This document shows, piece after piece, positions 6,327 through 51,275 of a stretch of DNA of 64,000 bases. Where the stretch lies: contig NC_088295.1 of the NCBI RefSeq assembly GCF_032854445.1, positions 82,876,644 to 82,940,643 on the forward strand, read 5' to 3'. A program made the translations under genes and the position numbers. The DNA comes from Liolophura sinensis. Taxonomy: Eukaryota; Mollusca; Polyplacophora; Chitonida; Chitonidae. The notes beneath the pieces were generated by a model that was given only the letters and a program-made list of their open reading frames with translations, made no database searches and had not been told where the DNA came from. Positions within the stretch are counted from its first letter, which is position 1. The number at the start of each line of letters is the position of its first letter.

Positions 6327-9300
6327 ATGGACACAGTCATAATTAATGTCAACGGGCGGAAATTCGAATTGTCCACGGACTCATTTGAAAAGTTTCCGGA
6401 AACATTCGCTAGCCGGCTTGCTGGGATGGAATGCGGCTACAAAGGGAATAAACGACTCTATTTCATTGAACGACACTCGGAGATATTTCAGTATGTCTTG
6501 TTCTATTATCAGTTCGGTGAGCTACATATGCCACGATCCGTGTGTCCTACCTTGTTCAAGAAAGAGCTGGATTTCTGGGGAGTAGACGTGTCGTCCTTGG
6601 AAAATTGCTGCCTGGATGTGTACGGCATGGCTTACGAGAACTTGCGACGTCTCGACGACTTTGAGAAAGACTATGAGGTTAAGGCGGACGAGCAAAGATT
6701 GCAAAGGTTTCCCTCAAAGTGGAGTCGCTTCCAGAAGACAATGTGGCAGATTTTAGATAATCCATTTGCCTCCAAATGGTCAGAGGTATGTACTAGTAAA
6801 CCATTTTTTTTTTTGCTGTCATATGTCATATGGGTATCAACTTTTTAAAATTGTAAGTAAATTAATTCATTGAAAATAGTTCATATGCAAAAGCTTTAAG
6901 GACGCTGACCAAGAATTTATTACCCTAGCACGGCCGGGTTGTCTTTGTGTGATTATTGTCTTGGTACGACCGGATTGTCTTTGTGTGATTATTGCTTTCA
7001 CACCACCGCATTGTCTTTGTGTGATTATTGTCTTGGCTCTACGGGATTTTCTTTGTGTGATTACTGACTTGGCAACACTGGATTGTCTTTATGTGATTAT
7101 TGTCTTGGCACTACCGGATTGTCTGTGTGATTGTTGTCTTGGCACCACCGATTGTCTTTGTGTGGTTGTTGTCTTGACACTGCCGGATTTTCATTGTGTG
7201 ACTATTGTCTTAATACGGCCGGATTGTCTTTGTGTGACTATTGTCTTGAAACTGCCGGATCGCCTTTGTGTGATTATCGCCTTAGCATGGCCGAATTTGC
7301 ATTATTTGATAATATCTGTCTTCATATTTCCATCATGATCCCAGATACCTTTCGACTGTTTTAGAAACAGGGCACGTCAGTATTAATAAGGTCACCACAT
7401 TCTTCCCACTGAACTGTTGGACTAATACGTCAGGATTTAGGTACAGATCACACTAATGTGTGCCTCCGTGGGGTTGCCTCCCCTCGAGGGGCTATTTGCT
7501 GCAGACTAGCAAGTCTTAGTTGACAAACCCACGGTAAACTTAAAATCCCCGTCTCTTAATCATTACATGCATGGTCACACGCCAAAGGCCTTGCAATCAT
7601 TCTGAACTCTGAAACTCAATTTTTTTGTTAAAAAATATTTTGGACTGTTGCATCGGACGTTATTTTAAATGGCATAGAACATGTAAAAGTGTTGGTTCCG
7701 GCTTCTCAAACTGATAAATTCACACGATGCCTATTTTGATCTCGGTCTGCCAACAAGCTGCTGATAGTCATTGGTTTCCCCCGGGCTCTGCTTGTTTTCC
7801 ACTCACCATAAAATTTGTTACCATCGTATAAGAGAAATATTCTTGAGTACGACGTAAAACACCAATTAAATAAATAAATAAATATTTTAATCCACCCTAC
7901 CATGTTTAATCCAACACCATGGTTCTTACGTCATTTTTGCACCGGACGATATGAAGTTTTGCTTGCACGATGCCCACAATGAGACAAAGAAAGTCATGAG
8001 TGTTTCGATCACTAAAGGTCTCCATCCGAGGCGGTTTTCATACGCCACAAATCGTAGTGTCCCATCTGTCATTTCGACTTTTCTGTTGCCTAGAGTCAAG
8101 GGATCCTTAAATACCGTGAAGCAGATTTAAGGGTACCACTGTCGGAGAGTAAAGATGAGAAACAACTGGTTTGTTTAGCTTTCAGATCAGCGATAAGCCT
8201 TACACAAGACCAAACAAAGAAACACGAAGACTCTTGAATAAGTTTAATATATAGATTTGTACAAAATATTTGATTGGTGTTTTACGCCGTACTCAAGAAT
8301 ATTTCCCTTATACGACGGCGGCCAGCCATTATGGTGGGAAGAAACCGGGCACAGGCCGGGGAAACCCATGACCACCTGCATGTTTAATCGACTAATAATA
8401 CAACTGACAATAATACACAAACAACTAATATAGTTTCTTACTGACGAAAGCGTCCAAATCTGAATGGAATATTCCGGCTTCCAAAGGCGAGTCAGTCTAC
8501 GTAAATATAAAATCCACAGTTAAGATGAATTCCTCTATCTATGGATGACCGTCCGATAAGTGGTTTATTCCCTAACTGCTTATGAATGTGTGACTTTTCA
8601 GGGTGGACGGGTTGACAGTAGATCCCGTGAGCAGGGGCTGTCATTCCTCGGAAATATACTTAAATATACGTAATCGTACAAATAGATAATGAGCGATACA
8701 AGCTCCAAAATAACCTCTCAAAAAATAACAAGTGGTGAAGCACAAGCTCACAAAGTGCTACGTACAGAAAATGGAACGTTTTACAGTTGTTTCAGTAACA
8801 AAGGATTTGGCTTTAAACGCAAACAATCTCATCTGTTACAGTTTTGTTTGCCATTCTGTTTAATTACTTTTTGTCCGCAGTTAATCTGCAGTCGTGATGG
8901 AAAGTAATCAGAAAACCATCACACAAATTCCTTTGAGGATGTGCATGGAAAAGTACACTTTACATCATAGGAGGACACTGGAGACTAATCTATAACGCGA
9001 TTCGTGAAACTGTGAGAACTAGGCAACTGTGGACTAATTACACGTCCTTTTTCTCTGTAAACAGCCGGTTATAGTAGGCGGTTATATCTTGCATACCACT
9101 GCGCAACTCGTTGGTGTGATTCTCATTTTGAATAATAGAGCACGCTTTGTCTCATTTGCGACAAAAGCACGAGATATATACTGGGTATTTCACACGGTAA
9201 TTAATCTTACACACTGAATATAGATTGAGTTTTGTACAACGAATGGCGATTAGAGATATTCATGCATGCCTCTGCCGCCAGTGGAAACTGGTATATTTTT

Positions 9301-10909
9301 GTATATGTCTTAATTTACATATCGTACATATTTAAATATTTGCTTGTGGCTCTTGACTGCATATATTATTTTGTTGTGGTAAATGCTGTTGCACAAGTCA
9401 ATTCAAACAGAGGCTTAGATAATAATACCTTGCACAGTTGTGCGTAATAATCACTGTGATTTTCTTCTGATAGACAGTTTGATTAATGATTTCATAGAAT
9501 ACATGTAGAAAAGCAGCTGCGGCTAGGATTTTCCACGTATTGAGCGATGGAGCGCTCTGCGGCTAGGAATCAGCAACATTGTAACGAACAGCTTAACACA
9601 CGTTTCCAGCTGTGTCCGTCCGTCACATTTTTGTCACTTTGTATCTTGTGATAGAATATTCACCTGAATGTAAGACAACTTTCACTTTTGTGTGGGATGT
9701 CGGAGGTGTGGCGAATTTGTACTTGTTTCATTCAGGAAAACCAAAAGTATTGTATGAAATACCGTGCTGGTAACATTTCACACCTGACGATAGAAAGCAT
9801 TGTTTAAAAATGTTGTTCTGTTTCGAGGTTTCCTTTCTTTTTATTAAATGTTGTCTTTTTGGTAACCTTCAGTGTTCTCTTAACACCATCTCGGTACATT
9901 TATATGATTCATTGTGCACAGTCAAATTTAAAAAATAGTATTTGTTTCATTTTCACAGGTGTTTTACTGGTCCTCCATCATGTTTGTCTTCCTGTCAATA
10001 TTTGCTTTGACAGCTGCCACCCACCCGCTGTTTAAGGTGGAAGATAAGCTTGACAAGGAAGCCGTATTATCCGGTCACTTTGGGTGGACTATCAGCGAGG
10101 GCTCTATCCCAACCGACGATGACAAAGAGATCGTCGGATTTTTCTCACATACGGACGACTCAATAATGACCTTTAGCGGGTCAATAAACAACAGTTTAGG
10201 AAGCGGAAACGGTTCAGAGGACGTAACTACCTATTTTGGCTCCTCTGCCACCGTTCTGCGCAAAAAGGACGAAATTGCCCTTCTAGAATTCATATGTTTT
10301 ATATTTTTTACAGTTGAAGTTGTTGCCAAACTGTTGTTTTGCCCACGCTTCCGGGTCTTCTTCAGCTCTGTCTTGAACATCGTGGACCTGCTGGCCATAT
10401 TCCCGCGCTATATTCTACTCACCTTGGATTACTTCGTCGTGTCCAGGGATGTGGTCTGGAAAATGGAGGAGGTGTTTGAAGGTATCGCTGTGCTGAGGGT
10501 GTTCCGTTTATTACGATTAGCCAGAAGAGTTCGAGGTCTCCGTGTTCTAATCTACGCCATCAAAGCCGGACTGAAGGACGTTCTTCTTATGGGGCTTATG
10601 CTCTTCATGGCCACAATCATCTTCGCTTCTCTAATGTACTATGTGGATACACGCAAACAGTTCCCGAGTATTCCTCACGGTTTATGGTGGGCCATCGTCA
10701 CCTTAACTACCGTGGGGTACGGAGATATGGTGCCCCAAACAGCTCCAGGTAAACTTTTGGGAAGTTTTTGTGCCATAACGGGTCTCTTGATAGTGGCTAT
10801 CACGGTGCCAATCTTCGTTTCCAAATTTCTCTTATACTACAATCATGTGGCCAGAAAAAACCAAGTATCGGTAACCCGATGTAATAAACGGTATCCTGTG
10901 GGAATATAG
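6327..10909 (+). CDS. Shaw/Kv3-type voltage-gated potassium channel alpha subunit (paralogue 1)
   Basis: CDS is join(6327..6785, 9959..10909), 469 aa, phase-0 intron. Exon 1 encodes the cytoplasmic T1 tetramerisation domain (about residues 3-97). It has the zinc motif HX5CX20CC (H67, C73, C94, C95) and an FWGVD segment, both like Shaw/Kv3. Exon 2 encodes S1 (about 156-175), a long S1-S2 loop with sequons N230 and N237, S2 (259-279), S3 (290-311), S4 (325-345), S5 (358-382), pore and S6 (418-440). The filter TVGYG is at 404-408. S4 has R333, R336, R339, R342, R343 and R345, but the two outermost Shaker charge positions align with E327 and A330. The S6 PVP hinge reads TVP (435-437). Only about 29 residues follow S6, which is short for the family. 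The start was chosen because T1 begins at once, as in paralogue 2. Known family role: tetrameric plasma-membrane K+ channel that repolarises excitable cells. Class is confident; subfamily is inferred. Confidence 0.9.
6927..7300 (+). repeat. 36-bp minisatellite, about 10 diverged copies
   Basis: The unit contains 'ttgtctttgtgtgattattg' followed by 'tcttgg' and a variable CRCYACCGGA-like end. The first two unit starts, 6939 and 6975, are exactly 36 bp apart. Because 36 is a multiple of 3, the array yields a spurious open frame of repeated CLCVIIVLALPD-type peptides, which is not a gene. Confidence 0.85.
7742..7883 (+). repeat. 5'-truncated SINE
   Basis: It matches the 3' half of the SINE at 16796-17060: 'ggtctgcc', 'cccgggctctgc', 'ttcttgagtacg', 'gtaaaacaccaat', then a repeated AAAT tail. 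The tRNA-like head is absent. It lies in the channel intron in the sense direction. Confidence 0.85.
8265..8383 (-). repeat. 5'-truncated SINE, antisense
   Basis: The conserved module 'ggtgttttacgccgtactca' is followed by 'tacgacggcggccagc', 'attatggtggga' and 'ccggggaaacccatgacca'. It is in the opposite orientation to the copy at 7742 and in the same intron. Confidence 0.85.
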
Positions 10910-17696: not shown

Positions 17697-17905
17697 TTTG
17701 ATTTGTTTTTTACGCCGTACTCAAGAATATTGTACTCACACGACGGCGGCCAGCATCATGGTGGAAGGAGACTGGGCAGAGCCCGGGGGAACCCACGACC
17801 ATCCGCAGGCTGGTGCCAAACCTTGCTGGATGTGCCCAGATTCTCCCACTACTGTGCTGTCCGCCATCGTACAAATGATATAACACCAATCAAATGAATA
17901 AATAC
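17697..17905. repeat. Two SINE 3' ends head to head
   Basis: Bases 17697-17822 are the SINE 3' half on the minus strand: 'tacgccgtactcaagaat', 'acgacggcggccagc', 'gagcccgggggaaccc'. Directly after, about 17838-17905 reads as the same 3' end on the plus strand: 'tctcccactactgtgctgtc', 'aacaccaatcaaatgaa' and an AAAT tail. The result is a small imperfect palindrome. Confidence 0.7.
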
Positions 17906-17989
17906 CTTAAAATAGTACCTTTCTTCCAGTGAGTTCTCCTTCAGGTTTATGACCTTAATAGTTCAGAGATCATTAATTTATCTTTTTAT

Positions 17990-18054
17990 CTAATTATGAC
18001 ATTTTATGCCGTTCTTTAGAATATTTCACTTATAAGATGGCTGTCAGCATCAGG
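17990..18054 (-). repeat. Degenerate SINE fragment
   Basis: 'attttatgccgttctttaga' and 'atatttcacttataagatgg' are recognisable but diverged versions of the SINE 3' module in antisense orientation. Confidence 0.5.
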
Positions 18055-18463
18055 ATGTCCAGAGTCCCATACTTTCATAATTACCTCCCCTGCTATTACG
18101 TTTTTCTGTAAACCTCATATATTTCTCATTCTAATGTTGTTTAGTGATCTATATTGATTTTCTACGCGTCCCCATGACATGATCATCCCAGAGCGACTTC
18201 CCCCCAATACTGTGTGTGGTGGTACATTTCCCTACAGACCCATTTCTACACTCCTGGAAGGAATATTCACACCGCCTACAACTATATAAGCACATTACCT
18301 TGTTCATCTGCCAACAGGCTTACAATGGAGAAAAAAAACACACACTCCAATTACATCTATAACTTTTTTAGACATGCACATGCACATTAAACCGTTATTA
18401 TCAAATATTGACTCTTTTAATGGAATTGGATAACATAGAATAGAATAGATTGTGTGGCTTCGA

Positions 18464-18510
18464 CACATGTGTGCGTGTGCGTGCGTGAGTGCGTGCGTGT
18501 ATGTGTGCCT
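18464..18510 (+). repeat. Alternating TG/CG simple repeat
   Basis: An impure run of TGTG and CGTG steps. Alternating purine-pyrimidine tracts of this kind can favour Z-DNA. It sits just after the 'gtggcttcgacac' landmark of the array, replacing sequence found there in other units. Confidence 0.8.
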
Positions 18511-20274: not shown

Positions 20275-20458
20275 TGAATCATGCAATTGAATCATGCAAT
20301 TGAATCATGCTTAACATATGATCAAATATGACAATTGAATCATGTTTAACATATGATCAAATATGACAATTGAATGCGTAACAAATGATCCAATATGACA
20401 ATTGAATCATGCGTAACAAATGATCAAATATGACCACTGAATCATGCGTAACAAAGAA
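20275..20458 (+). repeat. 35-bp tandem repeat
   Basis: The unit includes 'caattgaatcatgcttaaca' followed by 'tatgatcaaatatga', with four to five copies. Unit 1 has about one and a half related copies at 16337-16390, so the expansion probably followed the larger duplication. Confidence 0.8.
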
Positions 20459-20955
20459 ATACTGCCGCCTGATCACAGTTTACCTCAGTTAAGGATGGAT
20501 TAAACCTTTCATGACAATGCTTCCACCATCAGGTCTGAATAAGTAAAATTCACTGGGAATGTTTTTTTTCGGAAATCGGCCTGTAGGTATACATGTACAC
20601 ATCCAGAAATCGCACCAACCTGGAAACCATCAGGGGATGTGTAAGTCAGGTCTTCGCTTTCTCTATCCATGAATTCACAACTGATGCAAGGTGTTTTCCA
20701 TGGACATGAACTTTCTCGTTACGAGAATTTTCTAAAAGTTTTTTGTCACTTACCTAAATCACTGTTTTATTACAATTTATGTGGCGTTTGACAAAGTAAA
20801 ATTGTCCGACAACATAAGGTACCAGACCTGAAGAATAATTCTCACAACCGACCTAAAACACACATAACTGGAGGAAAAGTACGCATTTGTTTAGTCGTTC
20901 TGGTCAGAGCATAACTTTAATCGTCTGTAATATTGCATTTTACATCGGCTAAAGG

Positions 20956-20957
<2 letters not shown>

Positions 20958-20999
<42 letters not shown>
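20958..20999. repeat. (AT)n microsatellite, about 42 bp
   Basis: An uninterrupted AT dinucleotide run near the junction of array units 2 and 3. Confidence 0.95.
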
Positions 21000-21003
<4 letters not shown>

Positions 21004-21294
21004 CTGTAACCACTAATGATGCCATTTCAGTTTATTATATCGTAATTACCTCAAAAAGGGTATTCTTTAATATATTCAGCTGATTAATTGTTTATTAAAT
21101 TTCCAGATGAAAGTACCCTATACAGTAGTTGCATACTAATTTGGCCATGCAGGCACAACGCAAGCGCAATCACACACCATAGAGAATCTTTCAGCTCTGA
21201 GAGTGTGAGTTCATACCCAACTAAGGCTTCCCTGTAGATCCATTTCTACAGCCCAAGAAAGTTTAGGCCTATTCACACCGACTACGACTACATG

Positions 21295-21394
21295 TATATA
21301 TTTATTTATTTATTTATTTATTTGATCGGTATTTTATGCCGTAATCAAGAATATTTCACGTACGCGACGTCGTCCAGCATTATGGTGAGAGGAA
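21295..21394 (-). repeat. Truncated SINE inserted in array unit 3
   Basis: A TTTA-type tail on the left is followed by 'cggtattttatgccgtaatc', 'aagaatatttcac' and 'ccagcattatggtgagagga'. It splits the 'acgactac / tatataaacac' landmark that is continuous in the other units, so it inserted after the duplication. Confidence 0.8.
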
Positions 21395-22049
21395 ACTTAT
21401 ATATGCACATGTATATAAACACATTACTTTGTTCATTTGCCAACAGGCGTAACACGACGCACAAGAAACTCACAGGCCAACAAAACATGTAATATTTAAT
21501 TACCGCAATCAGACAACCTTAGATTGTTTATACGTTCACAATGGCGAAACATCGCTTATATTAACACAAACAATCGTGTTGCCATGCAATACACATCGCT
21601 TTTAATTTGCTCACGTTAATGGAATTCCACAATATGTGAATAGCCTGTGTGGCTTCGACACGAGACTAATTACTACATCAAGCCCTTGTGAATCAACGTA
21701 TACATTATAGTCGATATGTAATTGTGCGAAGGCTGGGGTAGGTGAACAATTATTGAACTATATTAGACTAAGTTATGCTATTAGCTGATTTATCAGCTGA
21801 TGTTAACCTCTAACCTTACTATGTTTTTCTGTAAACCTCATGTACTTCTCATTGATAATTCAATTCATTGACAATGCTTAATGATTTATTTAGATTTCCT
21901 ACTTGTCCACCATGATACGATCATTCTAAAGCAACTGTCCCCGATGCTATAGGTGGTGGTACATTTTCCTGCAGACCCATTTCAACACTCCCGGATGATA
22001 TATTCACACCAGATCTGAGTTTTGTTTCATTCTTGTCACATTAACTTTC

Positions 22050-22192
22050 AGATTCCGCATGGAAACTGGGAGGACCGGGAACCAGTCCAGGTCGGGTCAT
22101 ACCAAAGAATAAAAAAACTGGCACTTGTTGCCGTCTCGCTCGGCGCTCAGCACCGAGAGATGAGAGCAAAGAAACAGGACTGGTCGTCTACA
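22050..22192 (+). repeat. 5' part of a tRNA-derived SINE inserted in array unit 3
   Basis: It contains 'gggaaccagtccaggtcggg' (decayed tRNA-like region) and 'gtctcgctcggcgctcagca', then ends at 'ggactggtcg'. It interrupts the landmark between 'attcacacc' and 'tctacagctatataagca', which is intact at 18265-18295. It is related to the element at 46378-46600. Confidence 0.65.
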
Positions 22193-23989
22193 GCTATATA
22201 AGCATATTACCTTGTTCATTAGCCAACAAGTCAGCTAACCTAATTTTTTATCTATTTACACTGTTCCCAAAAATGGTCACTTTTAATGGAATTGGACAAC
22301 ATGTGATTAGCCTGTGTGGCTTCGACACGGGATCAATTACTACACATAGTTCTTGTGATATTTACATGATGGGCGACCACAAAGCGGATGCTGTGCCTTA
22401 GTATAGAGTGTTATTATACATTGGTCCATTGCACAACCTTCCTCGTCATCATTATTCCAGGCTGTCCCACACCACCAACTGTAATAAGGAATGTACATGT
22501 ACGTAACTACCCAGATGGTCACAAAGCAATGATCAGTATTCGTTTATTCTATCACAATCGTTGATAACAATACTAGTCTTCGTATATCACTGTGATGATG
22601 TCCAACATTCTAACCTTACTCGAAGATGAAGCTACTCAATTGTGTCGTCTCTGAATATTAAACGCTAGTCTGCAATTCTATGTTACGTCATTGTATCGTT
22701 CAGCATTTGACAATATTGTGGCCGAGCAATATTTGCCCCAGACAGAGATAGCAGATCCCCACCCCCGGGCTGTCTATCTCCGTGCACTGCCATAGACAAG
22801 TGGCTCTGGTGATTGATGTTCACGTATACACACAGAGCGGGTGATATCAGATGATTTCCCTCAGGTATGCTACGTGTACATTCAGGATTTTTCCAGAATA
22901 CATGTAAAGCATTCAGCACCATCCGCATTCAACTTCTCCTGTTTTAATGAATTTTTAGGGGCATTTGGGCGGATATTAAACAAAAACGGGATAAATGCAT
23001 GGATGTTAATTCAAATATTCTACAGTATTGCGCCGTTTTGTGTATTGTCACACAGAGGATTTGGTGTTAATTTACTGGATGTAAAAACATACCCAGCGTG
23101 CAGGACAAATTCCACATATGACCTTCTCATTTCTGGATTGTTTATATCACGATATACCTCCCTCTTCTGTAAACTCTGAGTCACACTTGTGGATAGTTAG
23201 GTGGTCCAATCTTACTTCCTTCGCCTCTAAGTCTCTAACCCGTCTTACCTCCCCATTCCGTCACATGGTCATCCAATCCCGACAATTCCAACTCAGACGC
23301 CTTCTAAGACTAAAAGCTGAGGCAGTTGTTGAGGGGTATAAAAACGTTCGTGGACTTGAATGAGATGAGATATTGATGACTAAGATCAGGATATAGCCTG
23401 CTTAGAGGGGTTGTCGGTTATCCTTATAGAGCCGTCATGCACATGCCCTGCGGAGCAATTATCCTCAAATTGTCATATTTCCATCCGCAGTAATTCCGTC
23501 ACAGTTGTTTGACAGCCGTCATTTTTTCCAGGCCATTAGATTTCACCGGATCACACGGAGTCTCTTTTGGACAACAGAGATACTTGGAATAGGGCCTACT
23601 TGAATTAGCAGAATAGGCACAATGGTTCTCCATCGAGGGACTCTAAACCTCCGAAGCTGTTACTATAAAAAGTGACGTGATTTTGTATATCGTTTTATTA
23701 CCTAATGATGGGCAAAACTATACCCGACATCTCGCTCTTATGAGAGCAGCTATAAAATTTCCGCTTAATTTATCTGTTGCTTAACAAATGTCACTACTAC
23801 TAATTACTATTATGCTTATAGTACTGTGGTATTTTCCGATGTGTGGTTCACGTTCAAATCATACTTTAGACAGACTGTGTTCTTTTAATACTCAAACTGC
23901 ATTTATTTTACATTTATCTTCCTGGCGATATAGTGTAACATTATGCCTGCATGTGTAACCAACATCCTGGTACTTTACAGACTGTCAAA

Positions 23990-24960
23990 TCTACCGGACA
24001 TGTAAGAGGCATGGCCAAATTGGAAACTGAAGGCGTTCTTATGTGTGAACACGTTGTGAAGGAGTGGAATGGACATACACCAAAGCGCTACGTGACACAT
24101 GAAAGCAACCATGACAAACACATCGACATATTTTCGGGAACATTTTTTGTGCTTGTGAAAAGTTCTGAAACTTATAAATAGATGACAGCCGCACAGTGAT
24201 TGAAAAGACAACTATATGGGAATATTTGTAATGGGTGATAAAGAAATCAGCTGAAATAATATGTAGCATGTTCAATCAACTGTTAACGATATCAGATGTT
24301 GAAACCCCGTCATCATCATCTGACCACACTCAGTGTTTTCCTTCTTTTATAGCCTGCAACACTGATACACCGCCAAGTTTATCAAAAAACTTCGATATGT
24401 TTTAAGTTTTACATTTCAACATTTACTCTTTCCAAATTCCTCCCGAAAAATTATTGCTGAAGGAATTTTATCTAGGTCACAGCAGAAAATGAGTATGTGC
24501 AATCTTTGTTACATAACTAGCTTGTCAATTCTTGTTACTATAATCAACGGCACAAAACTATATAAAACTTCGTTTTTAAGGTAATTGTGATGTGTCAACA
24601 ACTGTTTCTTCCAAGGATGTAAAAGCACTACCATTCTGGAGCAGAATTTCCAGGGCCAAGATGAACTATTCATACACTTCTCGAAACTAGGTGGGGGAAG
24701 AGCAGTACAGGGGATTTTGAGTGCTTCATTCTGTAGTTGTCTGCAAATAAATTTCAGATGACAACATTTCGCGCTGACCTGATAAGTTTGAACTGCAGGG
24801 GTAAAATTGATTTGGAAGCGAGATGACATGAATGAGTCTAATAGATTGTCATGTTCCATACATCCTCATGCTTAAGAATTTCCGTTTAAATTCCCCAGAG
24901 GACAATTTGAAGGTTTCCCATTCGCTCTTCCAAAATGATGTCTGATCAATTCCTGACAGA
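23990..24960 (+). repeat. Diverged copy of the 3' flank of K+ channel paralogue 1
   Basis: Several ordered segments match 10980-11560. Examples are 'ctgaaggcgttctt' against 'ctcaaggcgttgtt', 'agatgacagccgca' against 'agatgacagcagca', 'cgcgctgacctgataa' against 'tgcgctgacctaataa', and 'atttccgtttaaattcccc' shared almost exactly (about 24880 and 11480). It implies a segmental duplication that included sequence next to the channel gene. No channel coding remnant was recognised beside it. The 116-codon minus-strand frame at 24509-24859 lies in this copy and looks fortuitous. Confidence 0.65.
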
Positions 24961-25080
24961 AGTAAGCATTATCTTGCCGCAATATTTTTCATCTTTGATC
25001 ATCTTTCAAGCATTATTCACCGCTCATGACTTGCTGTTGTATCACGTGATCATGTCGTCGCTGCTCGGGTTTAGCTCTCT

Positions 25081-25107
25081 CCCCCCCCCCCCCCCCCCCC
25101 CCCCCCC
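25081..25107 (+). repeat. 27-bp poly(C) tract
   Basis: An uninterrupted run of 27 C (27 G on the minus strand), followed by 'actcacacacaa'. Such runs can form i-motif or G-quadruplex structures, and their length is error-prone in assemblies. Confidence 0.95.
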
Positions 25108-25144
25108 ACTCACACACAAGAAGAGGTAGCCAGCATAAGCAGTC

Positions 25145-25190
25145 ATTGTGCCGCGTTGGCAAGTTAACCACTCGGCCACGGAATCTCCCA
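25145..25190 (-). repeat. tRNA-like head of a decayed SINE
   Basis: The minus strand reads 'ccgtggccgagtggttaact', close to a Ser/Leu-type tRNA A box. No matching acceptor stem or B box completes a tRNA, so it is treated as SINE-derived. A similar piece occurs at about 39300-39335. Confidence 0.45.
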
Positions 25191-25199
25191 CCTGCGACT

Positions 25200-26720
25200 A
25201 CATTTTTCGTCCAGTTAAAACATAATCTATGTTGTTTCCTCAATGTACCTCATAACAAACCCACTCTAAATCAATTATCCCCGATACTAACAGACTGCAA
25301 TTAAACATGTGATTCTAAATTAATAAAATCCGGTAACCTCAGATTTTAATGGCGAACCATGGCTTATGTTAACACGACGTTCGTGTTCCATTAGCCATCG
25401 CTTTTAACTGATTCACCCTAGTGGAACTAGAAAACATGTGAACGGCCTAAAACGTCGGCTCGGGACCACCCCCATGCAGTGTATACAGTGAATAAAGCGT
25501 GGACGGGTATCTAGCGGATTGCTTCACATGAGAAAACGGTGTTAGTACCGGTATATAGAGTTCTGCGGAAACAGCGCTGGTGTGGGTGATACCACATTCC
25601 ACGCTATCATTGTCCCGGGCCGTCACTTGCCAGCTGAGTGGGTCCACTAAACATTGACATCATAAGGATCATGTACTATTAGTTTTCCATCACAATGGTT
25701 GACAACAAAGCTATGGTTTGTAATGGTTTACAGCGGACAGATCAGTCTGGAATTCTGTTTTGTGTCGCTGTATCATTCAGCATGCGACTATGTTGAGGAC
25801 AAGCAGTGGTCGAGTTGAGCTCCATCAGTGTGTTCCCCTGGCAAGCCTGGCCCGAGTTATTACCTTACCCATACGGCGGGGCTGTTCACCGCCGCAGAGA
25901 ATATTAAGAAATACATTCGTTTTGTGCATCGTCACAACGCGGAGTGTTAATTTATTTGATGCAAAAAGTTACCCAGCATGGCAAAGTCGTCTTATGGCTC
26001 ACACACATGTACGTCCCTCTTTTGTAAATGGTAAGGCACTTGGGGATAGTTAGATGGTTCAATCTTACCCCGCTTTCAAATCTCTAACCCCTCTTACCAC
26101 CCATTCCGTCAAACGGTCATCCAATCCGGACAACTCCAACTCAGACTTACTCTCAGTTTAAAAGCAATAACCCACATGTTTTATGTGGGGTGATGGTCTC
26201 AGCCGAGACAGTTTCCGTGGGGTATAAAGGCGCTCGTGGACTTGAATATGATGAGATGTTGATGACTGAGATAAATGTAGCCTGCTTTGTGATGTTGTCT
26301 GCCATCCTTATAGAACCGTCAAGCACAGGCACCGGGGGATAATTGTCCTCACACTCTTAGATTAGATTTACACCAGTAATAATTCAGACAGAATTTTTTT
26401 TCAGGCCGTCATCTTTCATCGGATCACTTAGAGACTCTTAGGATAATCTTATCACGTTTCTGGTTTTCAGACAAACTTGACGGTTTATCTTGGGAATGAT
26501 GGTGCAGTGATACTTGGAATAGGTGACACTGATTCTCCACGTATTTTTTCCCACTTAATCACTCCCAAGGAACTGAGAATACATGTAGCTCTTTTCCTAG
26601 CGGATCGATATTGACTAAATGCGTCGTGACTTGATTGATCGCTTAATTGCCTATTGATGGAAAAAAGTACTTGACATCTCGCTTTTGTGTGCGAAGCTAT
26701 AATATTTCCGCTCAGCTTAT
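25200..26720. repeat. Tandem array unit 4 (partial)
   Basis: It retains 'gtggtcgagttgagctccat' (about 25807), a 'cacccattccgtcaaacggt' block (about 26097), 'tagaaccgtcaagcacagg' (about 26310, like 19225) and 'ttgatcgcttaattgcc' (about 26636). It lacks the long linker of units 1 and 2 and is preceded by the channel 3'-flank copy. Confidence 0.6.
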
Positions 26721-34695: not shown

Positions 34696-37423
34696 TTAGG
34701 AGTCCTTTTGAGAACCGTATTCCGGCATGGGTTTGACAAAACTGGAGTACCTTCTGAAGGGTTTGTACTGATTCCCAGTAACACTCCGACAACGGCCAAC
34801 GCGGTGGTAATACAAGGCAAACTTGCTGGCAAAGATCGGGACGGTCACAGCCATGACGATGACCCCGCTTATAGCGCAAACCGACCCCAATATCTTTCCA
34901 AGGAGAGACCGGGGTACAGTGTCCCCATATCCTACTGTCGTCATGGTAATGATAGCCCACCAAAACGCTGCTGGGATACTCTCTATATTCTCGGTTGGGC
35001 GTTCGCAGAAGTAAAACAGACTTGAGAACATTAGTACCCCAATGCCGAGTAGCAGAACCAGAAGCCAAATCTCACGAAATCCTGCCCTAAGCGAGAATAG
35101 GAACACTCGAAGTCCGCTGCACTGTCCGACCAGACGAAACACTCTAAACACCCGTACCGTACTGATGGCTGAGATAAAGTCCATATAAGATGACGTGTAC
35201 TTCAACTCTGGGAAAATAGCCACAAGGACGACTCTGGAAAAGAATGCAATTACTGCCACTGTGTCGATTAAATTGAGAGGCGAAGATAGAAATCTTCGTC
35301 TGTTGACGTAAACGCCAAATCGAAACAGGAGGTCAACCGAGAAGAAAATACCACAAGCAAGAGACAAAAGGTGTATACTTGGCATAGGTCCCCCTAAATG
35401 TGGAGGCAGTTTACCTTGATGAGGTTTTCGTGATACTGAGAAGTTGGCCGTGGTATTAAAGTCATCTTCTTCCTGCGATTTACTCAAACCTAATTTCTCT
35501 TCGACAAGGTTTTCGTAACTGTGGAATTTGTCGCCCAGGAATTCTTTCCATTCTTCCTTGGAGAGCTTATGTCGAAACTGAGGCATGGTCTCAGCACAGA
35601 GCGCTATCACCGCCAGCAAGACGAACACCATGGACAACCAGAAGTATATCTGAAAACACATAAATGAATTTATTCATTTGATAGATTTTTGAGGTATAAT
35701 AAATTACAATTCACATGACTGCATTTTCGTACCTAATTCTGCTTGAGCCATGGTGTTATTGCTTTTAACAGAAAAGAATAAAACGCTGAGGTACATGTTA
35801 ATCCACACGAGATCGGATTCTACCTGTTACGTTCGATCATTTGTCAACTGTCACAATGACGTAGTTGCTCTAGTTTCATTCTCCTTTCTGGGTTATTGTA
35901 TTACTGCTGTATATAATTTCAACTCTGACTGCTATCAGAAAAAAACCGGAGTGCCTGACGCGAACGTCGAATCCTTGCCTTGCTGTCAAACTCTGTGGAT
36001 CAAAGGTATAGCGGCATCAACGGGTTTTCCGAAACAGTGGCGTTAGGAGCGACTAGCTTTCATCCCCTTGCTCCACCTAACAAATTACTCCATCGAATAG
36101 TATTTCCAAACTGTTTACAATCTATGTCATCAACCTAGCTCATTAACAGTCTAGCTGAATGATGAGAGTTGACGAACCATTTTTACACAGAGATCCGACT
36201 TTTTTATACGCCATATTAAAACATGTCAGAAAATACATAAAGATTACATAAACAACATAATGTGTCCCAAATCCTTTAAAGTGCCACTCTGGTCAGAATA
36301 CAAACTGCGTAGAAATATTACAATTATACGAAAGAAATCCTACGGAGTAAGCCTAACACTATGTTTCAATAGGATTTTGATGAAGAACGCTATTTAACCC
36401 ATATAACTGAAGATTCCTTGAAAAACAAAATCTTCGGCTGTGTCCGTAAAATTTTCCTCATGTGACGTCTTAAGATTCCCTGAATGACGTCGAATCAGGC
36501 AGATGTGACGTTGAGTAATGCATTTATGCTGGGATGACGTTAAGAGCGTTTGAATGGGCAACGCCATTTGTGGATATACGTCAGCGATTGATGACATCAT
36601 GTGTTCGTGGGTGACGTCACACCATGCAAAGCGGAAGAGACAGAAATATTTTGTTTCTATATAATCTGTCGAAACATACAATATCGGTTTTAATTCACTG
36701 CAATATTTTCACAATTTAGGAAAGCAATTCAGAGTATCCAAGTCTTTATCAATTTACCTTGCTTTTAAGAGACAGATGTTTTGACACCAAAGTAGCTCTT
36801 CCCAAAATGTGATATGTTTTGTCACTTTAAGCATTTCAATGGCTTTTATGCATGTACGTATCTATTGTTCTATAAACTATTTTGTAGAAACTATTACATG
36901 TTTGGTCAGACGTTTCAGATTCGTGCTCAAGAAGAAAAGAAAAACCCTCGCGTGTAATCTGATAAAAACATTTTGTAAGTAACTACAATTATACCTGTCC
37001 AAAGACACTGTAGTGTGGTTCTTCTAGGGACTCGTGAAAGAATCCCCGCCAGGTGCCTTTGTTGATTGTTGAGGGCGTCTCTTCCTTATTCATACTGTCC
37101 AATATCTTCACTTCCTCCAGGAATATGTCCATCCTCATCTTACAGCAGTTTTTCATCTCGTTAACATCCACCCCCCAAAACTCCATCTCTCGAATGAACA
37201 CCGAGGGGCAAACATCCTGCGGCATGTGGAGCTCGCGAAGATTCAGGTAATCCAAAGCCGCTTCAAAACATCCAACATGGCGTGCGAAGTAATAATGACC
37301 GTCATCCAACTGCCGATAATTCTTACCACCAGTCTTCGCCTGTTTCAGCGGTCTATCTATCAAAGACTTTGGTACCTCATAGCGCCGACCATTCACGCTG
37401 ACTTTCACAATTTCAGAATCCAT
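34696..37423 (-). CDS. Shaw/Kv3-type voltage-gated potassium channel alpha subunit (paralogue 2)
   Basis: CDS is complement(join(34696..35649, 36995..37423)), 460 aa, phase-0 intron at the same T1/S1 junction as paralogue 1. T1 (about residues 5-96) has the zinc motif HX5CX20CC (H66, C72, C93, C94) and FWGVD. Then come S1 (145-163), a long S1-S2 loop with sequons N208 and N212, S2 (235-254), S3 (267-288), S4 (303-326), S5 (335-358), filter TVGYG (381-385) and S6 (394-418). S4 keeps only R309, R312 and R315. The outer positions are S303 and S306, and the inner R6-equivalent is G318. The S6 hinge is TVP (412-414), not PVP. A basic tail follows S6. An in-frame ATG at 37465 would add 14 residues; 37423 was preferred because it matches paralogue 1. 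It is likely a plasma-membrane K+ channel or modifier subunit with altered voltage sensing. The role is inferred. Confidence 0.9.
35650..36994 (-). other. Intron of K+ channel paralogue 2
   Basis: On the minus strand the donor is CAG|GTATAA (36995/36994) and the acceptor is TGTTTTCAG|ATA (35650/35649). The length is 1345 bp. Readthrough would add one residue and stop at once, because the donor itself reads GTA TAA. A cluster of TGACGT sites lies in its donor-proximal part. Confidence 0.85.
36460..36622. promoter_or_regulatory. Cluster of CRE-like TGACGT sites in the channel intron
   Basis: Within about 160 bp there are TGACGTC at 36463 and 36485, TGACGTT at 36506 and 36535, ACGTCA at 36578, TGACATCA at 36592 and a full palindromic CRE TGACGTCA at 36612. 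The first three are 21-22 bp apart, about two helical turns. CREB/ATF proteins bind such sites. Enhancer function is inferred from the density of sites only. Confidence 0.5.
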
Positions 37424-40400: not shown

Positions 40401-41457
40401 TGATTCGTAACCTAGTTTCGTATCATCGATGCGTGCCATCATGTCATCGTTTCGTGCCATCCCCGGGCGACGGTACGATGGTACGATGAGGGCCTCACCC
40501 AGTTTCTATACATAAGTGATGTATCAAGGTTTTGAACGCTAAAACTCTCCTTTGATGAAATGAAATGCGAAATGATGGGATTAAAGCGGAAAGCAGTGTT
40601 TGATCTACCAGTTGTCCGATTTTTGGCTTCAAATCAGTTTATTCCGGCCAAGTGACCTTTACACTTGTGGATGTTTATTTCCAGAAAAAAAGCCAATCCG
40701 AGTTCAGCGGGCTAAACTATATTTAACTGCCTACTTATACAGTTTATACAGTATACATTGTGTAACAGCATTCCAAATTGCCGCTTGATCCGTGCAATGG
40801 CTCTGGTTTGGTTTCCTAGCAAGATGGCGGGAAATGTAGATCATACTGGGATTTCATCTGTTTACGGTTAGATAGAACTTTTGCTTTTGAAACTCAGGTA
40901 TCGACTTTGATTAAACAATTGACGGCAAATCAATAAAACGTGGTTGCAGACAGCACTTTTAATCGTCCGAGCAAGAACAACAGGCTCCCAGTTTTTAGCT
41001 TAGAGGCCTAATAACCCATAAATACACCTAATGGCATCAATGATGACACGCCAACAAAGATTCCAGTCAAATATTGACACTTTTAATGAAGAAATACAGT
41101 CCGCGTTTCACATCGATGAAATTTATAAAATTAGAGTGCATTAGTAATCAATATATGATACACAAGTAACAAGGGAAATAACATAAAATATACCAGTATC
41201 AGTGCACAGAATAGCTGTTGGTACAGAGCGCTTTAGTGCACATATCTGAGTCCCTGTTGTGACAGTCCTGAAAACAGCTTGTAGCAATAGAAGCATCAAA
41301 TACACTTATTACCACACCAGTAATAATCAGGTGTTTTTTTCATTATTTCGTCAAGAGTTGTCTCCGGCTACAAGTTTTGGTCCCTCCACATAAACCGGTT
41401 CATGAGATTTCTTTGACATCCTTAAAACCAGTTTTTTGGCGATGATCAGTGGAATGT
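37424..41457. other. Gene-free stretch; 5' flank of channel paralogue 2
   Basis: The first few hundred bases right of 37423 should hold the leader and promoter of the minus-strand channel gene. Nothing else is recognisable beyond short frames. A tRNA-like fragment 'gaaccactcggccaccgtag' lies at about 39314 and is probably SINE-derived. Confidence 0.4.
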
Positions 41458-44400
41458 TTAGTCTCGAAACAGTTTCAGACGTAGCAGCATGTTGATAAAC
41501 TTTGGCAGGTCTATAGCTTTTTCCGGTCCTGCGGCCGTCTGAATCAAAAGGGCAATCTCTTCGTCTTTTAACTTCCTGCCTGCCGGCGTGTGCATCTCCT
41601 GCATGGCGTCAAACGTACGGCTGATGTCCACGTCTCCAGAAGGTTCAGCCAGTCTTTCGTACATTTTCAGCATGTCGTGGACCCTGAAAAATTAATATAA
41701 TATGTTAATTAATGTAATATGTTAAATCAATAAAGACCAGTTGAATTAGTAAATGTCACCTAATTATTTCACAATTCTTGGTTTTGCAATTCAATTTTGT
41801 AGTTGTACAAAAGTCTTAATTTGAGGTGGGGGTGTGTTTGGCTGAGGAGATGTGGGGGAGGGTGGATACTGTCAGGTATAAGTGAAGTAGGTCAAGGTAA
41901 ATTCATTTAACGTGACCAAATAATTACCTTATCTTACATTCTCGATTTCGTATAGAACCACGCTTACAGCTCCCATGGTGCACATACTGCAATATTCACT
42001 GACAGGAACGCAATATCCTATATGTCAGGGGAGTGAGCCAATAATGCAACCTGCCGACCTGTCACGATCACAGTTTACCCAAGGTGGATTTCTAAAGGTC
42101 AAGTCCATCTTGGGTGGTACGCCTACTGGGTTGCTTGCCGTAGCTGCAAACCCACTAGACTCTGCTATAATATAAGGGCTTCCTTTTACGTTCTACAACG
42201 TAACCATGCTACAGTGCCTTCCAGTCAGGTTTCTACCGGGATATGCATATTAACCCTTACTTACAATGTTTCAGTCGCAAAGTAAATAGGGACAAGTGAA
42301 CCTAAGAGTCACGCATTATGTTTGCTAAAGCATAACAATCCTGGGAGTTTATTCTTCATTACTACAAACCATCTGCCTTTCTCTCTTTCTCTCTCTAGTG
42401 TTCATACTCCAGCTTTCGTGGACAACTTATAGGTGATAAATCGGTATCATTGTCCATGTTCAAATGTCATAGGATGGTCTTTCAACGAGAATCTTTCACC
42501 AAAAGACATATATACGTTAAATATTCAAAGGTTATCAAAGTTAGTTTCAGGATGGACATAATAAGGTAAGCCTACAGCTACACTATGCATGGACACTGAA
42601 TTAAGTTTCATGGCTGGTTGTTTGACCTTTACAAACTGTCATAGCCAGGGACTGGAGCTTACTAAGGTAAAGTTTACAAATGACTCGCGTAGTACGGCCG
42701 AGTAAAATCCTTGCCGCGTATGCTAGGGAAGCATGACCAGCCTAACAGTTAACGAATCTGAGAGCATACTCACTTTAATACACCTGGCGACAGGTAAGAA
42801 CGGGTGGACAAACCTGTCTACCCGAATTAATTACCCAGCTCATAACATCAGTTCAGAAAATTAGGTGAAGGTTTCCGGACTGTTATAAACTGTCGAGGCC
42901 TTAGTAAAATATTTACATATACGTCCTCTTTTTAATCTCTGAAAGGGTATTAATGCAATTATACAAAGTCCAAAGTGAACTGGATTCCAGAAAGAAAGAC
43001 TGGTTTCACACACGTTTCCTTCAAGATGTCCTCATTTGTTCTACTAATGTTTCCTTCAAAACATGGAGACTTTTCTATATTACAGCTGTTTAACAAATAC
43101 ACCTGACTTCACAAAATAATGCACGATTTTAGCAACAAAGCACGGATTTTGAGAACATAGCACGATTTATACATTAAAGCACGACTTTGTACTGTTCGTT
43201 TTATTCTCTCCTCTCGTTAAAATGTGGTGACCAAAGGGTATTTCTAACTTTGTTGATTGTCACCATAAATTATCCATTTTAATTTTTATTGTGTGGTTGG
43301 AACTGTAATACGCGTCATCCTCAATACATTCCCACAAGTGTATACCTTTACGCTGCGCATACCATTTTTCATTTAGGTATCAAGTTGTCATCGGAGTCTG
43401 TATGTTTACATTGAAAATGTGTTATTCTTTTGGGGCTAAAGATAACAAATTGGATCCATTTGTCTGTTAAGGGACCACACCAGTAAAGCCCGTGGTCATC
43501 ATACTCTGCGAACCTACACAAGGAATGGGAGAAGTTTCATTGTAGAAATGGTACATTGTTTTGCCAAGGTATTATCGCGAATGCCTTGTGAAAATATTAT
43601 TATGGTCTCGATATTCCCTTGTATAAATGATCCTAGCCTAAATACGCCGCGTGGTGTATGTGTAAATAGTGTACTCTTACCCATGGCCAACCTGGGTGTA
43701 AAACTGTTGGAACTCCCAAATACTCAGCTCATCGTTCTGGTCTTTGTCAAAGATATCAAACATCACTTTCGCATGTTCCTCAGACAGATTAAACTCTTTC
43801 TGAAACATCTCGTAAGCTGTGTCCTTCTTTAGACGTCTGAAGTGATTGCCCACGTATTTGTCAAATATCTTCTGTACATCATCCCTGTAACGAATCAAAG
43901 ACACCTCATAAATATTCTAAAGGGTCATCAGCAACAGATATGCTGACAAATACACCAGTTTAAAAAAATAGATATTCTATATAAATGAGCTACAGCTGTT
44001 TATGTTCAGTGTCTTTAATCAGGAAAACCGTTTATTTCTGACAGCGATATATCTGGTGGATCAAACGATTTATGGGCATGTTTAAGTCTTGATTTAAGCT
44101 GTGAAAGGTACACTGTGGAATCCGGCTGACAAGTTTGAGGCAAATTTCCAACTGCACCTCCATGTAGCCACCCTCTGTGTTTTGAGGATTATCATGATGT
44201 GTTGTGAACTGTATAACTGGATTACCCAATCCGTTATTTTATACAACAGTTTATTCTAGAAATATCAATCTGAACTAGATGTTCACCACGTTTTTCTGAA
44301 TAGAATATATCACTCTCTACTTTCTTCATTTTCTCCACAATTGCGTCATTTATGGGACGCATTTATTAGAGTTTAGGTGTTCAACAAACGAAAACAAAAA

Positions 44401-46990: not shown

Positions 46991-49276
46991 TGTAATACAA
47001 CTGCGCAGTCATGTACACGAACCTTCAATCTATATTAGGTTACATTTACGCGGCTTCAATGTGCAAAGTCATCAACAAGTTCTTTTTCTGTTTCATAGAA
47101 TACAGCGTCCATCAAACAAACAGTAAAGTGGTCAGAGTTACAGACTTGCTTGGCTAAGTCCCGAAGACTTTGAACTAGGCTATATATTAACATTGCAGTT
47201 ATTAATAGAGAAAAATCGAATAAAATTGAACAGTCGACCTGAGCTCCCCTATGTAGGCCTACGACGGTAAGTGGTGAGCATGAGATTTATTTGTCCGTCC
47301 TATATTGCATGATTACAGCTTATCAACGCGATCAACGCGTCACGTTCCAAGGTTCATCTCGATCATGCCATATTACATCACGAAAGATGCACACATACAT
47401 GTAAAAGCCTACAAGTTTGCCGAACACTAAATACCAGACAATTATGCATAGAAAAAACGTTTCTTATTCCAGCATATATTTGTTCCAATATTTTCCAGTC
47501 AACGATTTCTGTATATGCATATACAAACAACTAAAAGCCGTTAGACCTGATGTGTGCTCGTTTTACCTGCCCGACTGGCTTATGCAAATGTATCATCAAG
47601 GCCTAAAACAACATCCCAGGTATTCTCAATCGATCCGACACCCGTTATCTGATCAGATGCTCAGGCAGGCTGTCACATTCACAATATGCAGCCTGGGAGC
47701 TTCCAATGGCGCGCAGAGAGCAGACAAATAGTTAGTTTGCAGGCCTATAAATTCAATACTCACGAGACTTTTCTAGGTGTTACAGCCATAGTTAGGCTGT
47801 GAGATGGTTCGGATGCTGGGTGGTTCTGTGGTATTCAGCCGATTTACAGCGACGAAAACGCTGTACAATACACTCTTCTACACGATTATCTTGCCCGGTG
47901 ATGTTAACAGTGACCCCTTCAATTGATGTAACAAGCTATGACGATTTGGTGACTTCCTCTCGCTGTGCGACGTGTCCTGCATAAAGCGTTGATGATCTCG
48001 TCCAGGATGTAGCTAAACACAGAGGCTTTTCTCCTTAACAGCTATCCCACGCTCACAGACAAGGGAGAAGCTGGCCAGCTCGTCCCAAACACCGCTCTCT
48101 CTCTGACGTCCGCAAGTCACCGGTAAATTCTCGCGAAAACTGTCCCCGCTAGAGGTGACTCAGAGGGTCTTCTGGCTATACAGGTGTATGCGCGGTTCAG
48201 CAGTATAGTGCATGGGCGGTGCGACGACAGCCTGTGTTCAGCGGTTTAGCGAACCGAGCCAACATACATATTTCTTCTATACCCAATTGTATGTGAAGCG
48301 TTTATTTATACTTTCGTGCTTGGGTGAGTTTATGACAGGTCATACTTTCCTTGGCGTTTTTCAATAGCTCAGTATAATACTTTAGAGCCGCCTTGAAAAC
48401 TTGTATATCAAGGTTATGAATACTATCTACGCCTGTTTGAGCCTGGAGTGTATACGGTGGAAACGTTCCTACCTGGAGAGTGCTGTGTAATGATGCTTAA
48501 TCAGCATATCATAAACACGCTATATGAAGGCGTGAGGCCAAGATTAACGAAGCTTGTCCCATGATACAGGCATTTTACAATACTGGGCAATATCTGCACG
48601 GCAAAGGTATTTGTTATATGATTTGTGTCATTGGGACAGTGATTAATGCTGTACTCCAGAATATTTCACTTATAAAAGAAGGATATCGCAGCTAGCCAGA
48701 GAGAACCGCGAATAAACGCCTTCCTTTGCTAATTATACCCGAAAAAACCCTGACCTTAAAGCCGTATGTAACCTAATCATCAAGAGCTAAATTTGAACCA
48801 CCGACCTGAGAGCTACATTGCTCGACAAAATAATACTTACAAGTGCAGTCTATATGCACAATGTATGAGGTTTTTCAGAGAAAGTGTCTCTGGAAAGTCT
48901 CCTTCACAATTTAATATTGTCGTAACCGTGCCTCTTCACGGAAGCTGACAAGTGTCTGCACATCCTGTAGAAAACTCCACCTGAAACGTGATAACGCCCA
49001 TCAGTATGATAATTGTCCCAATGAAGTACAGTATGACAAGCTCGACGAACTGTGAGCGAAGGTTCAGTCAAAAAAGTTTTGGTTATACTGCTAATTTTCC
49101 TTCTCCAAAGCGGGCCTCAAATTAACACACATGCAAACTCCGTCGATCTAAGTACATTTCCATCTGCAAAAGTGATAGCTTTGTGTGCATGATTTGGTGA
49201 GAATTCCTTACCCCACCACCTGGTTGTGATAGTCGAGTTGTTAGAGCAAGCACGTCGCAAGCGGGAAATCATTCCA

Positions 49277-50190
49277 CTATTAGCACTGAAATGTCAACAG
49301 CTATATGGAAATCCAATAACACCACAAGACATAGGACTGCACCATTTCCACTTAAATGTCAACGGTTATATGGAAAGCCAATAATACCACTACATGCGCC
49401 ACTCCACAAGTGGCACTGAAATGTCAATAGCTATATGGAAAACCATAAATACCACTACATGTACCACGCCACCATTTGCACTGAAATGTCAACAGCTATA
49501 TGGAAAGCCAATTACACTGAAATGTCAACGGCTATATGGAAAGCCAACAATACCACTACATGCACCTCGCCACCATTGGCACTGAGATGCCAACGGCTAT
49601 ATAGAAAGCAAATGAAATTACTACATGTACCAGAACACCATTTGCACTCAAATGTCAACAGCTATATGGAAAGCCAATTACACTGAAATGCCAACGGCTA
49701 TATGGAAAGCCAGTAATACCACTACATGCACCACTCCAACATTTGCACTGAAATGTCAACGGCTGTATGGAAAGGCAATAATACCACTACATGCACCACT
49801 CCACCATTGGCACTGAAATGTCAACGGCTATATGGAAAGCCAATAATACCACTACATGCACCACTCCACCATTGGCACTGAAATGTCAACGGCTATATGG
49901 AAAGCCAATAATACCACTACATGCACCACTCCACCATTTGCACTGAAATGTCAACGGCTATATGGAAAGCCAATAATACCACTACATGCACCACTCCACC
50001 ATTTGCACTGAAATGTCAACAGCTAAATGGAAAGCCAATAATACCACTACATGCACCACTCCACCATTGGCACTAAAATGTCAACGGCTATATGGAAAGT
50101 CAAAAACACCACAACATGAACCACACCACCAACGGCGCTGAAATGCCAACAGCTTCATGGAAAGCCAATAATAGTACTAGCACGCCAGTT
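49277..50190 (+). repeat. 65-bp minisatellite, about 13 copies
   Basis: The unit runs 'cactgaaatgtcaacggcta', 'tatggaaagccaataatacc', 'actacatgcaccactccacc', 'atttg'. Unit starts at 49811, 49876 and 49941 are exactly 65 bp apart. Central copies are nearly identical and outer ones diverge. Two places (about 49510 and 49670) carry a truncated half unit ending in 'ccaatta' before a new unit starts. Short open frames across it are repeat artefacts. Confidence 0.95.
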
Positions 50191-51275
50191 GCTGACATAC
50201 ACTACCATGGAACCATACAAATGAGCAAGAAAAAGAACATGAAATACACGAATGTTTAAAACGTCAAGCTGAGTTAACGTGGAAGTTTATACATTTGTGT
50301 ACATGCGCTTCGTAATATCTGTCCTGAGAGTACTGCAAATGAATTTGTGGTTCTTAACTTGTGGTTCACAGAACTATGTCCTGTGATATAGTTCAAAGTA
50401 TGCTATGTTTAGCGCTTGTCACTCCTGTCTGAATTAACACAAACGGTTGTAATGGAATTTTTGTGAATCTTATTACGCCTATTGGACAAAAGCCCATGAA
50501 AAAGCTGAATTTTATGTAGGTCTAGAGCACGAGACTGAGTAGGACCTATGTTATGAATTTACAAATATGTCAGCGTCTGATACAGAAGGAAATTAACAAC
50601 GAGATTATGTACGATGGTACTATTCACGTAACATACACTCGTGGTTAAGCCGTACAATGTGACCTCACATTAACGCTGTCTGTGAGCCTACTTTAATTTT
50701 TGTATACTCAGGTTTATCGAAATAGACCTGTAGCACAGCACGGATCCCCCAAACCTGACCTCTGACCTTTAGTATACACAACTTTAAGGACACGCCTATT
50801 AAGGCTTTGTGCACTTGGAATTAATAAGATCACCAGGGGCAGCCTTGCTGTGGTGAGAGTCGGATAACTAGTGTTGTGAGAATTTCACATTGACAATAAC
50901 ACGCAAGTTATTGTCCACACGGATACTAAATGTATATTATTCACCGAATACCCGAGGGGAGATTAAATCTTTTCGTCTCGCTGACAGCCTTCAAGTTCAT
51001 TCACCAGTAGCGAAGTGGACAGAAATGTTTGATGTTAGATAGTCCTGAATTGATACATTATTCTTTTTTTCAGTGAAGCTCCCGGTGAAGTAATGGTTTA
51101 ATGTACTAGGCCCTATTTTCTGTTATTCCCTTGAGAAAATCACGTATCAAAATGAAACAGTGGAAGCGTACAATAGCATAAAATTCGCAAAAGGATCTGG
51201 CGAGATGGAACAGTTTCAAACAGAAGGTATAACAACTTTGTGAGTTTATAGACTTTATTTATTCACCCCTGTAAG

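Follow-up and report, generated by a model that had tools for sequence, protein, structure and literature searches.

A Kv3-like gene of the chiton Liolophura sinensis with three arginines in S4 and a changed S6 gate may encode a regulatory subunit

Two Kv channel genes lie within a 64-kb stretch of Liolophura sinensis DNA, called the window here (an assembly originally labelled L. japonica is reported to be from L. sinensis; PMC12441733). The second gene, paralogue 2, appears to encode a full-length Kv3-like subunit that combines a Shaw-type T1 domain, an S4 segment with three arginines and a T-V-P gate in S6. Judged from its sequence, the protein may be a regulatory subunit that co-assembles with a canonical Shaw-type subunit and does not gate well alone; this is the reading that we prefer, with a confidence just short of even. 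The gate change lies outside S4 and is a larger signal than the S4 change.

The spliced model of paralogue 2 joins two minus-strand coding exons in phase 0 with GT/AG borders, and its product of 460 residues is the same in every letter as the NCBI L. sinensis protein P0001. The main parts of the two genes are the following.

36995..37423, minus strand: exon 1 of paralogue 2, residues 1-143, start codon and T1 (BTB_2; Pfam PF02214, E 1.9e-10; match to P0001)
37142..37228, minus strand: T1 zinc motif HX5CX20CC (H66, C72, C93, C94), from the sequence
34696..35649, minus strand: exon 2 of paralogue 2, residues 144-460, S1-S6 and stop codon (Ion_trans, PF00520, E 5e-31)
34921..34938, minus strand: selectivity filter TVGYGD of paralogue 2 (residues 381-386), from the sequence
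6327..6785, plus strand: exon 1 of paralogue 1, T1 domain (splice model, Pfam)
9959..10909, plus strand: exon 2 of paralogue 1, S1-S6, 469 residues together with exon 1 (splice model, Pfam)

Paralogue 2 is of the T1-bearing Kv type, with PF02214, PF00520 and PF07885 all over cut-off in addition to the TVGYGD filter. The filter and the T1 zinc site had been described as intact in the original prediction, and both are, as are the charge-transfer phenylalanine F290 and the inner acidic residues. The HX5CX20CC motif is also common to Kv2 and Kv4, and among the matches listed in our protein searches (see below) it was found in 43 of the 50 gate-altered proteins of at least 400 residues. An AlphaFold2 model of paralogue 2, made with 14 sequences, was of modest quality (mean pLDDT 70.8, pTM 0.48), and the folds closest to this modest model were those of Kv4.2 and Kv3.1. 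A tblastn search of the 64-kb window with 17 Kv queries (one of them a duplicate; E up to 1e-3) found only four exons, those of paralogues 1 and 2; thus, no alternative exon over S4, a possibility raised together with the original prediction, was seen in the window. The NCBI name of P0001 is 'subfamily F member 1-like', i.e., that of a vertebrate silent subunit. Membership of Kv5/KCNF1 was ruled out by the type of gate and by the tree described below, in which the Kv5 rows fell with Kv2 and the chiton rows elsewhere.

The voltage sensor of paralogue 2 departs from the canonical pattern both in S4 and in S2.

35113..35181, minus strand: S4 of paralogue 2, residues 300-322, basic at R309, R312 and R315 only, of seven charge positions (sequence, MAFFT)
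35362..35364, minus strand: S239 at the Shaker E283 position, outer S2 countercharge lost (alignment; serine in P0002 too)
35590..35592, minus strand: E163, acid of S1 (sequence; alignment)
10478..10537, plus strand: S4 of paralogue 1, its seven charge positions being E, A, R, R, R, R, R (alignment)

At R1 to R6 and the next position, paralogue 2 has S303, S306, R309, R312, R315, G318 and S321. HMMER placed this S4 on that of Kv2.1 without gaps, and a MAFFT alignment of 229 Kv proteins gave the same columns; an error of register is ruled out by the agreement of these two independent alignments, and the register originally proposed stands. In the AlphaFold2 model, modest as it is, residues 296-318 form the S4 helix and residues 321-332 a separate linker helix. 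The interval first assigned to the sensor, 35159-35600, covers S303 and S306, but the codons of R309 to S321 lie just beyond it at 35154-35116, with the three arginine codons at 35154-35134. That the two outermost charges are missing is true of paralogue 2 but not peculiar to it: the arthropod Shaw rows read E, S, R, R, K, R in the MAFFT alignment, and with E, S at the start of these rows and E, A at that of paralogue 1, loss of the outer pair is something that paralogue 2 shares with Shaw. The inner charges are missing as well, as had been claimed, with glycine at R6 and serine at the position after it. What sets paralogue 2 apart from paralogue 1 and from arthropod Shaw is the loss of R6 (to glycine) and of E283 (to serine). 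In Shaker, E283 is reported to be the partner of R3 and R4 in folding, and that of R1 in the resting state (PMC7059764). Possibly, E163 of S1 substitutes for the missing acid in paralogue 2.

A relative of paralogue 2, P0002, is probably from another chiton; it is 86% identical to paralogue 2, in a comparison that does not cover T1, and repeats its S4, E283 and gate states, except for a leucine instead of serine at R1. S303L and V308I are the S4 changes between the two, and because of S303L, R1 is non-basic in both proteins without the residue being fixed. Identity reached 21/23 in S4, 15/15 in the S4-S5 linker and 32/32 in S6, as against 19/24 in S2 and 56/83 in the S1-S2 stretch, a pattern that suggests constraint on the paralogue 2 sequence. 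Conservation of S4 to this degree argues against decay, and the earlier view that the gene does not look like a pseudogene agrees with the pattern as a whole, by which a pseudogene is disfavoured. That the S4 losses are damage under relaxed constraint in a decaying gene thus seems very remote: the absence of R6 and E283 and the fast divergence of the S1-S2 stretch would fit such a history, but the reading frame is open, the splice sites are canonical, the filter and the zinc site are intact, and S4, the linker and S6 are kept in P0002. Both P0002 and P0121, the relative of paralogue 1 (94% identical), start at the first methionine within exon 2, and therefore fit genomic rather than spliced transcript contigs.

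The larger departure is in S6.

34819..34845, minus strand: altered gate TVPIFASKF of paralogue 2 (residues 412-420) where the canonical sequence is PVPVIVSNF; the same in P0002 (alignment)

Both chiton genes have T-V-P where canonical Kv channels have P-V-P, i.e., the first proline of the PxP motif is lost. A degenerate S6 gate consensus is a mark of regulatory (silent) Kv subunits, and it is present in paralogue 2. We assessed how such gates are distributed with three protein searches, for each of which the best 120 matches were listed, picked by likeness to the two chiton proteins or to relatives of these; the counts thus hold for that sample and not for a phylum. Mismatch to the pore pattern cost 13 of 242 proteins in the MAFFT set and 1 of 53 in the charge tally, which took in 279 of 280 rows, one with a gap in S4 being left out. 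Among the matches listed, 73 rows are gate-altered, with T, S, I, V, A, L or Q for the first proline, and all 73 keep the second; 46 of them carry the name of a mollusc, P0182 comes from a flatworm (Cichlidogyrus) and 26 are without a name. The position of Shaker V478, one of two residues proposed as the pore seal (PMC3440756), is occupied by alanine in paralogue 2 and likewise in 11 of the 73 gate-altered rows among the matches listed.

The gate-altered proteins also differ in their sensors. Among the matches listed, R1 is basic in none of 72 gate-altered proteins versus 123 of 190 PxP proteins, and R2 in 37/72 versus 162/190; position five is arginine in 61/72 versus lysine in 187/190. R6 is basic in 60 of the 72 gate-altered proteins listed. 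In the same listed matches, an acid stands at E283 in 67/71 gate-altered and 174/183 PxP proteins, and at the position of E163 in 26/67 and 134/181, respectively. Three or fewer of the six S4 charges were counted in only 12 of the 279 listed proteins, namely 10/72 gate-altered, 1/190 PxP and 1/17 P-x-nonP. The ten are the chiton pair (paralogue 2 and P0002), four oyster proteins (P0015, P0022, P0025 and P0179), P0093 of a mussel, P0241 of Mactra, P0252 and P0256. P0241 (Mactra antiquata), whose S4 has E, Q, R, R, R, D and whose E283 position is glycine, likely parallels the chiton in losing R6 and E283. Also, a gate-altered clade of seven rows (P0030, P0032, P0034, P0047, P0052, P0080 and P0094; six named bivalve or limpet, one without a name) has an unusual sensor, in which the fifth charge is lost (I, A or V) and R2, R3, R4 and R6 are basic.

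An expansion of lophotrochozoan Shaw genes has been published, with 13 Shaw genes in Lottia and function left for future study (Jegla, 2012; PMC3519636). In the available texts of a literature that took in few subscription journals, we found no account of the first-proline gate change, of a missing R1, of three-charge sensors in molluscs or of this particular S4; a paper on Lymnaea ion channels (PMC7789530) has one general sentence on this subject.

Silent status had been suggested for paralogue 2 on account of its S4, and it is plausible; the reason for it, the altered S6 gate, had been missed. Of 44 regulatory subunits from Nematostella and mouse, 43 are reported to carry nonconservative gate changes, the gate of alpha subunits being remarkably conserved (PMC9989356, citing Pisupati, 2018). 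Read backwards, this rule would make paralogue 2 likely regulatory, and paralogue 1 too; as reported, it runs from regulatory to altered gate, not from altered gate to regulatory, and it comes from sea anemone and mouse. Moreover, the rule is less certain for the chiton because vertebrate silent subunits are described as losing the second gate proline (PMC3440756), and the chiton proteins the first. The lack of any basic R1 and the ten charge-poor sensors in the 72 gate-altered proteins of the listed matches are further points for the regulatory reading.

If paralogue 2 is a regulatory subunit, co-assembly would take place through T1. With only R3, R4 and the fifth position kept, its sensor would move little charge and act as a weakly voltage-dependent arm, and the altered gate may be tolerated in only one or two subunits per tetramer. 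The T1 of paralogue 2 scored 158 with Shaw, 148 with Kv3, 148 with Kv2, 145 with Kv5, 99 with Kv4 and 82 with Kv1, and that of paralogue 1 scored 208 with Shaw, 199 with Kv3, 186 with Kv5, 171 with Kv4, 157 with Kv2 and 113 with Kv1. Thus, both T1 domains are nearest Shaw among the canonical groups, on small panels (1 to 4 rows in each) and, for paralogue 2, by narrow margins. With its zinc motif kept and Shaw as the best-scoring match of its T1, paralogue 2 would be expected to partner a canonical Shaw subunit. Possibly counting against the regulatory reading is a class of non-inactivating K+ channels of Aplysia, attributed to Zhao in 1994, that reportedly can help to set the resting potential. 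Drosophila K-Shaw2 counts against it as well, as this channel is reported to give currents by itself in oocytes (PMC4657974).

Paralogue 2 could also work on its own. It seems unlikely, though it deserves serious weight, that it forms a homotetrameric, leak-like channel with a small sensor and a shallow conductance-voltage curve, as Drosophila Shaw does. Arthropod Shaw rows have the same outer losses, with R1 and R2 replaced by E and S ahead of R, R, K and R, and Drosophila Shaw is described as weakly voltage-dependent and leak-like (PMC4657974, PMC4649037); on these grounds the shallow voltage dependence suggested originally is plausible. The intact filter, F290, inner acids and T1 of paralogue 2 would also suit a channel of this kind. 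Conversely, neither chiton gene has the PVP gate of the arthropod Shaw rows, and paralogue 2 has additionally lost R6 and E283, the residue that in Shaker is described as the folding partner of R3 and R4.

Compared with such a homomer, a gating-pore (omega) channel is a possible but weaker reading, and we consider it quite improbable. The small residues that replace R1, R2 and the S2 acid would let the sensor domain pass cations at negative voltage. N.at-Kv3.2, a flatworm channel of the Kv3 family whose R1 is H and whose R3 is G, is reported to carry a natural omega current, and the change of Shaker R1 to serine to open one (PMC2443804); paralogue 2 has serine at R1, at R2 and at E283. However, omega channels of the N.at-Kv3.2 type are marked by R1 and R3 both being non-basic, and paralogue 2 has serine at R1 but arginine (R309) at R3. 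This R3, lost in N.at-Kv3.2, could plug the septum at rest. Also against an omega current, the R1 substitution H325S is listed as turning N.at-Kv3.2 into a delayed rectifier (PMC2443804, Table 1), and P0002 has a bulky leucine at R1.

A tree was built from 99 rows with the S4 and gate columns excluded. It contained 64 gate-altered rows and 35 hand-picked comparison rows, 34 of which are the canonical group and the remaining one P0189; five short rows and P0001, the duplicate of paralogue 2, were left out. The 34 canonical Kv1-Kv5 rows came together with no gate-altered row inside (89/96; 97/97 without paralogue 1), and the core of paralogue 2 fell outside the canonical Shaw/Kv3 rows, a position that long branches may distort. 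Paralogues 1 and 2 were joined in one tree (98/89), with the program's long-branch warning. When paralogue 1 was omitted, paralogue 2 came to stand next to 16 rows of mollusc type, a placement that had no support (60/0). That the two are sisters was rejected: with either one left out, the other had no firm near neighbour except its own orthologue. A single clade of the 64 gate-altered rows was rejected by the AU test (p 2e-7), likely because P0189, with a PxP gate, adjoins P0194, with a QxP gate, among the gate-altered rows. On the tree, the gate change required two changes, the three-charge state two and the loss of a basic R6 four. As the gate changed only twice, its link with the loss of R1 does not stand for many independent events. 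The lack of R1 may be an old state of the whole gate-altered group and that of R2 an old state of roughly half the group (35/72 among the matches listed), and the loss of R6 and E283 would be a later step on the chiton branch.

The two chiton genes share the same two-exon plan and lie tail to tail with 24 kb between them. This proximity, their union in one tree and the likeness of their T1 domains (score 181) would suit a silent subunit dedicated to paralogue 1 as its partner, which had been offered as one possibility and which we regard as improbable. That union is one of long branches, and paralogue 2 loses its supported position when paralogue 1 is removed. The T1 of paralogue 2 scored higher with that of scallop P0005 (195) than with paralogue 1, and the T1 of paralogue 1 higher with Shaw than with paralogue 2. 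Paralogue 1 shares the T-V-P gate and is likewise without R1 and R2; it is thus itself predicted to be regulatory and unlikely to be the main partner. As far as these sequences indicate, the likelier candidate partner for paralogue 2 as a regulatory subunit is a canonical (PVP) Shaw subunit.

A wider version of the regulatory reading is possible but on balance doubtful. Molluscs may have their own class of regulatory Kv subunits, of an origin apart from those of vertebrates and cnidarians, with a mirror-image gate altered at the first proline and no R1; the chiton gene would be its most charge-poor member, its three-arginine, E283-less sensor tuning mixed Shaw channels or leaking through them. 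If the regulatory prediction holds, gate change and sensor decay would have moved together across a whole animal Kv group, and sensors with five, four and three charges would offer a natural series for the minimum number of S4 charges in a working heteromer. Regulatory Kv subunits would then have had a separate origin in molluscs, whose neurons have long served as classical models, and database names such as Shab, subfamily F member 1-like and egl-36-like would conceal the gate-altered group.

The rest of the window has features of its own. In the intron of paralogue 1, a minisatellite of about ten 36-bp copies (6928-7277) begins some 140 bases past the donor site and lies within a frame open for 152 codons. 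Stretches that recur about every 3-5 kb with 60-90% identity occupy 13250-26200, like an array of duplicated units, and a tandem array of 65- and 101-bp units lies at 49212-50244. A dispersed repeat, presumably SINE-like, occurs in both orientations at 1921, 7744, 8256, 16844, 17684, 21308, 31607 and 52286; ARAGORN found no tRNA. On the minus strand, 41351-43916 may be a gene for an EF-hand protein: for the piece at 43677-43916, matches to the EF-hand models of Pfam stayed under cut-off (E 2.1e-5), and the piece at 41458-41691 had no Pfam match. On the plus strand, leucine-rich-repeat and ubiquitin-like pieces at 59860-62347 match Pfam below cut-off, and we take them to resemble a tubulin cofactor E-like protein.

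Of the known systems, arthropod Shaw (Kv3) resembles paralogue 2 in its non-basic R1 and R2, in keeping R3 and R4 and in the type of T1, but it retains R6, E283, the lysine at position five and the PVP gate. The Shaw-like mollusc proteins with altered gates (Haliotis, Mizuhopecten, Magallana, Mytilus and others) share with it the lost first proline, the absence of a basic R1 and, mostly, arginine at position five, although most of those among the matches listed keep a basic R6 and an acid at E283. The flatworm N.at-Kv3.2 (PMC2443804) is likewise Kv3-like, with a natural loss of S4 charge that includes R1; it is described as an omega channel with R3 changed to glycine, whereas R3 is intact in paralogue 2, and R2 and R6 are lost there. 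The vertebrate silent subunits Kv5, Kv6, Kv8 and Kv9 have an altered PxP gate and an intact filter, as paralogue 2 does. They are reported to lose the second proline (PMC3440756), our Kv5 rows reading P-x-H, whereas paralogue 2 loses the first, keeps the second (P414) and does not group with Kv2 and Kv5 in the tree. Finally, the regulatory subunits described in PMC3519636 combine a regulatory phenotype with a degenerate S6 gate like that of paralogue 2; their function was tested, in another animal lineage, whereas paralogue 2 is known from its sequence.
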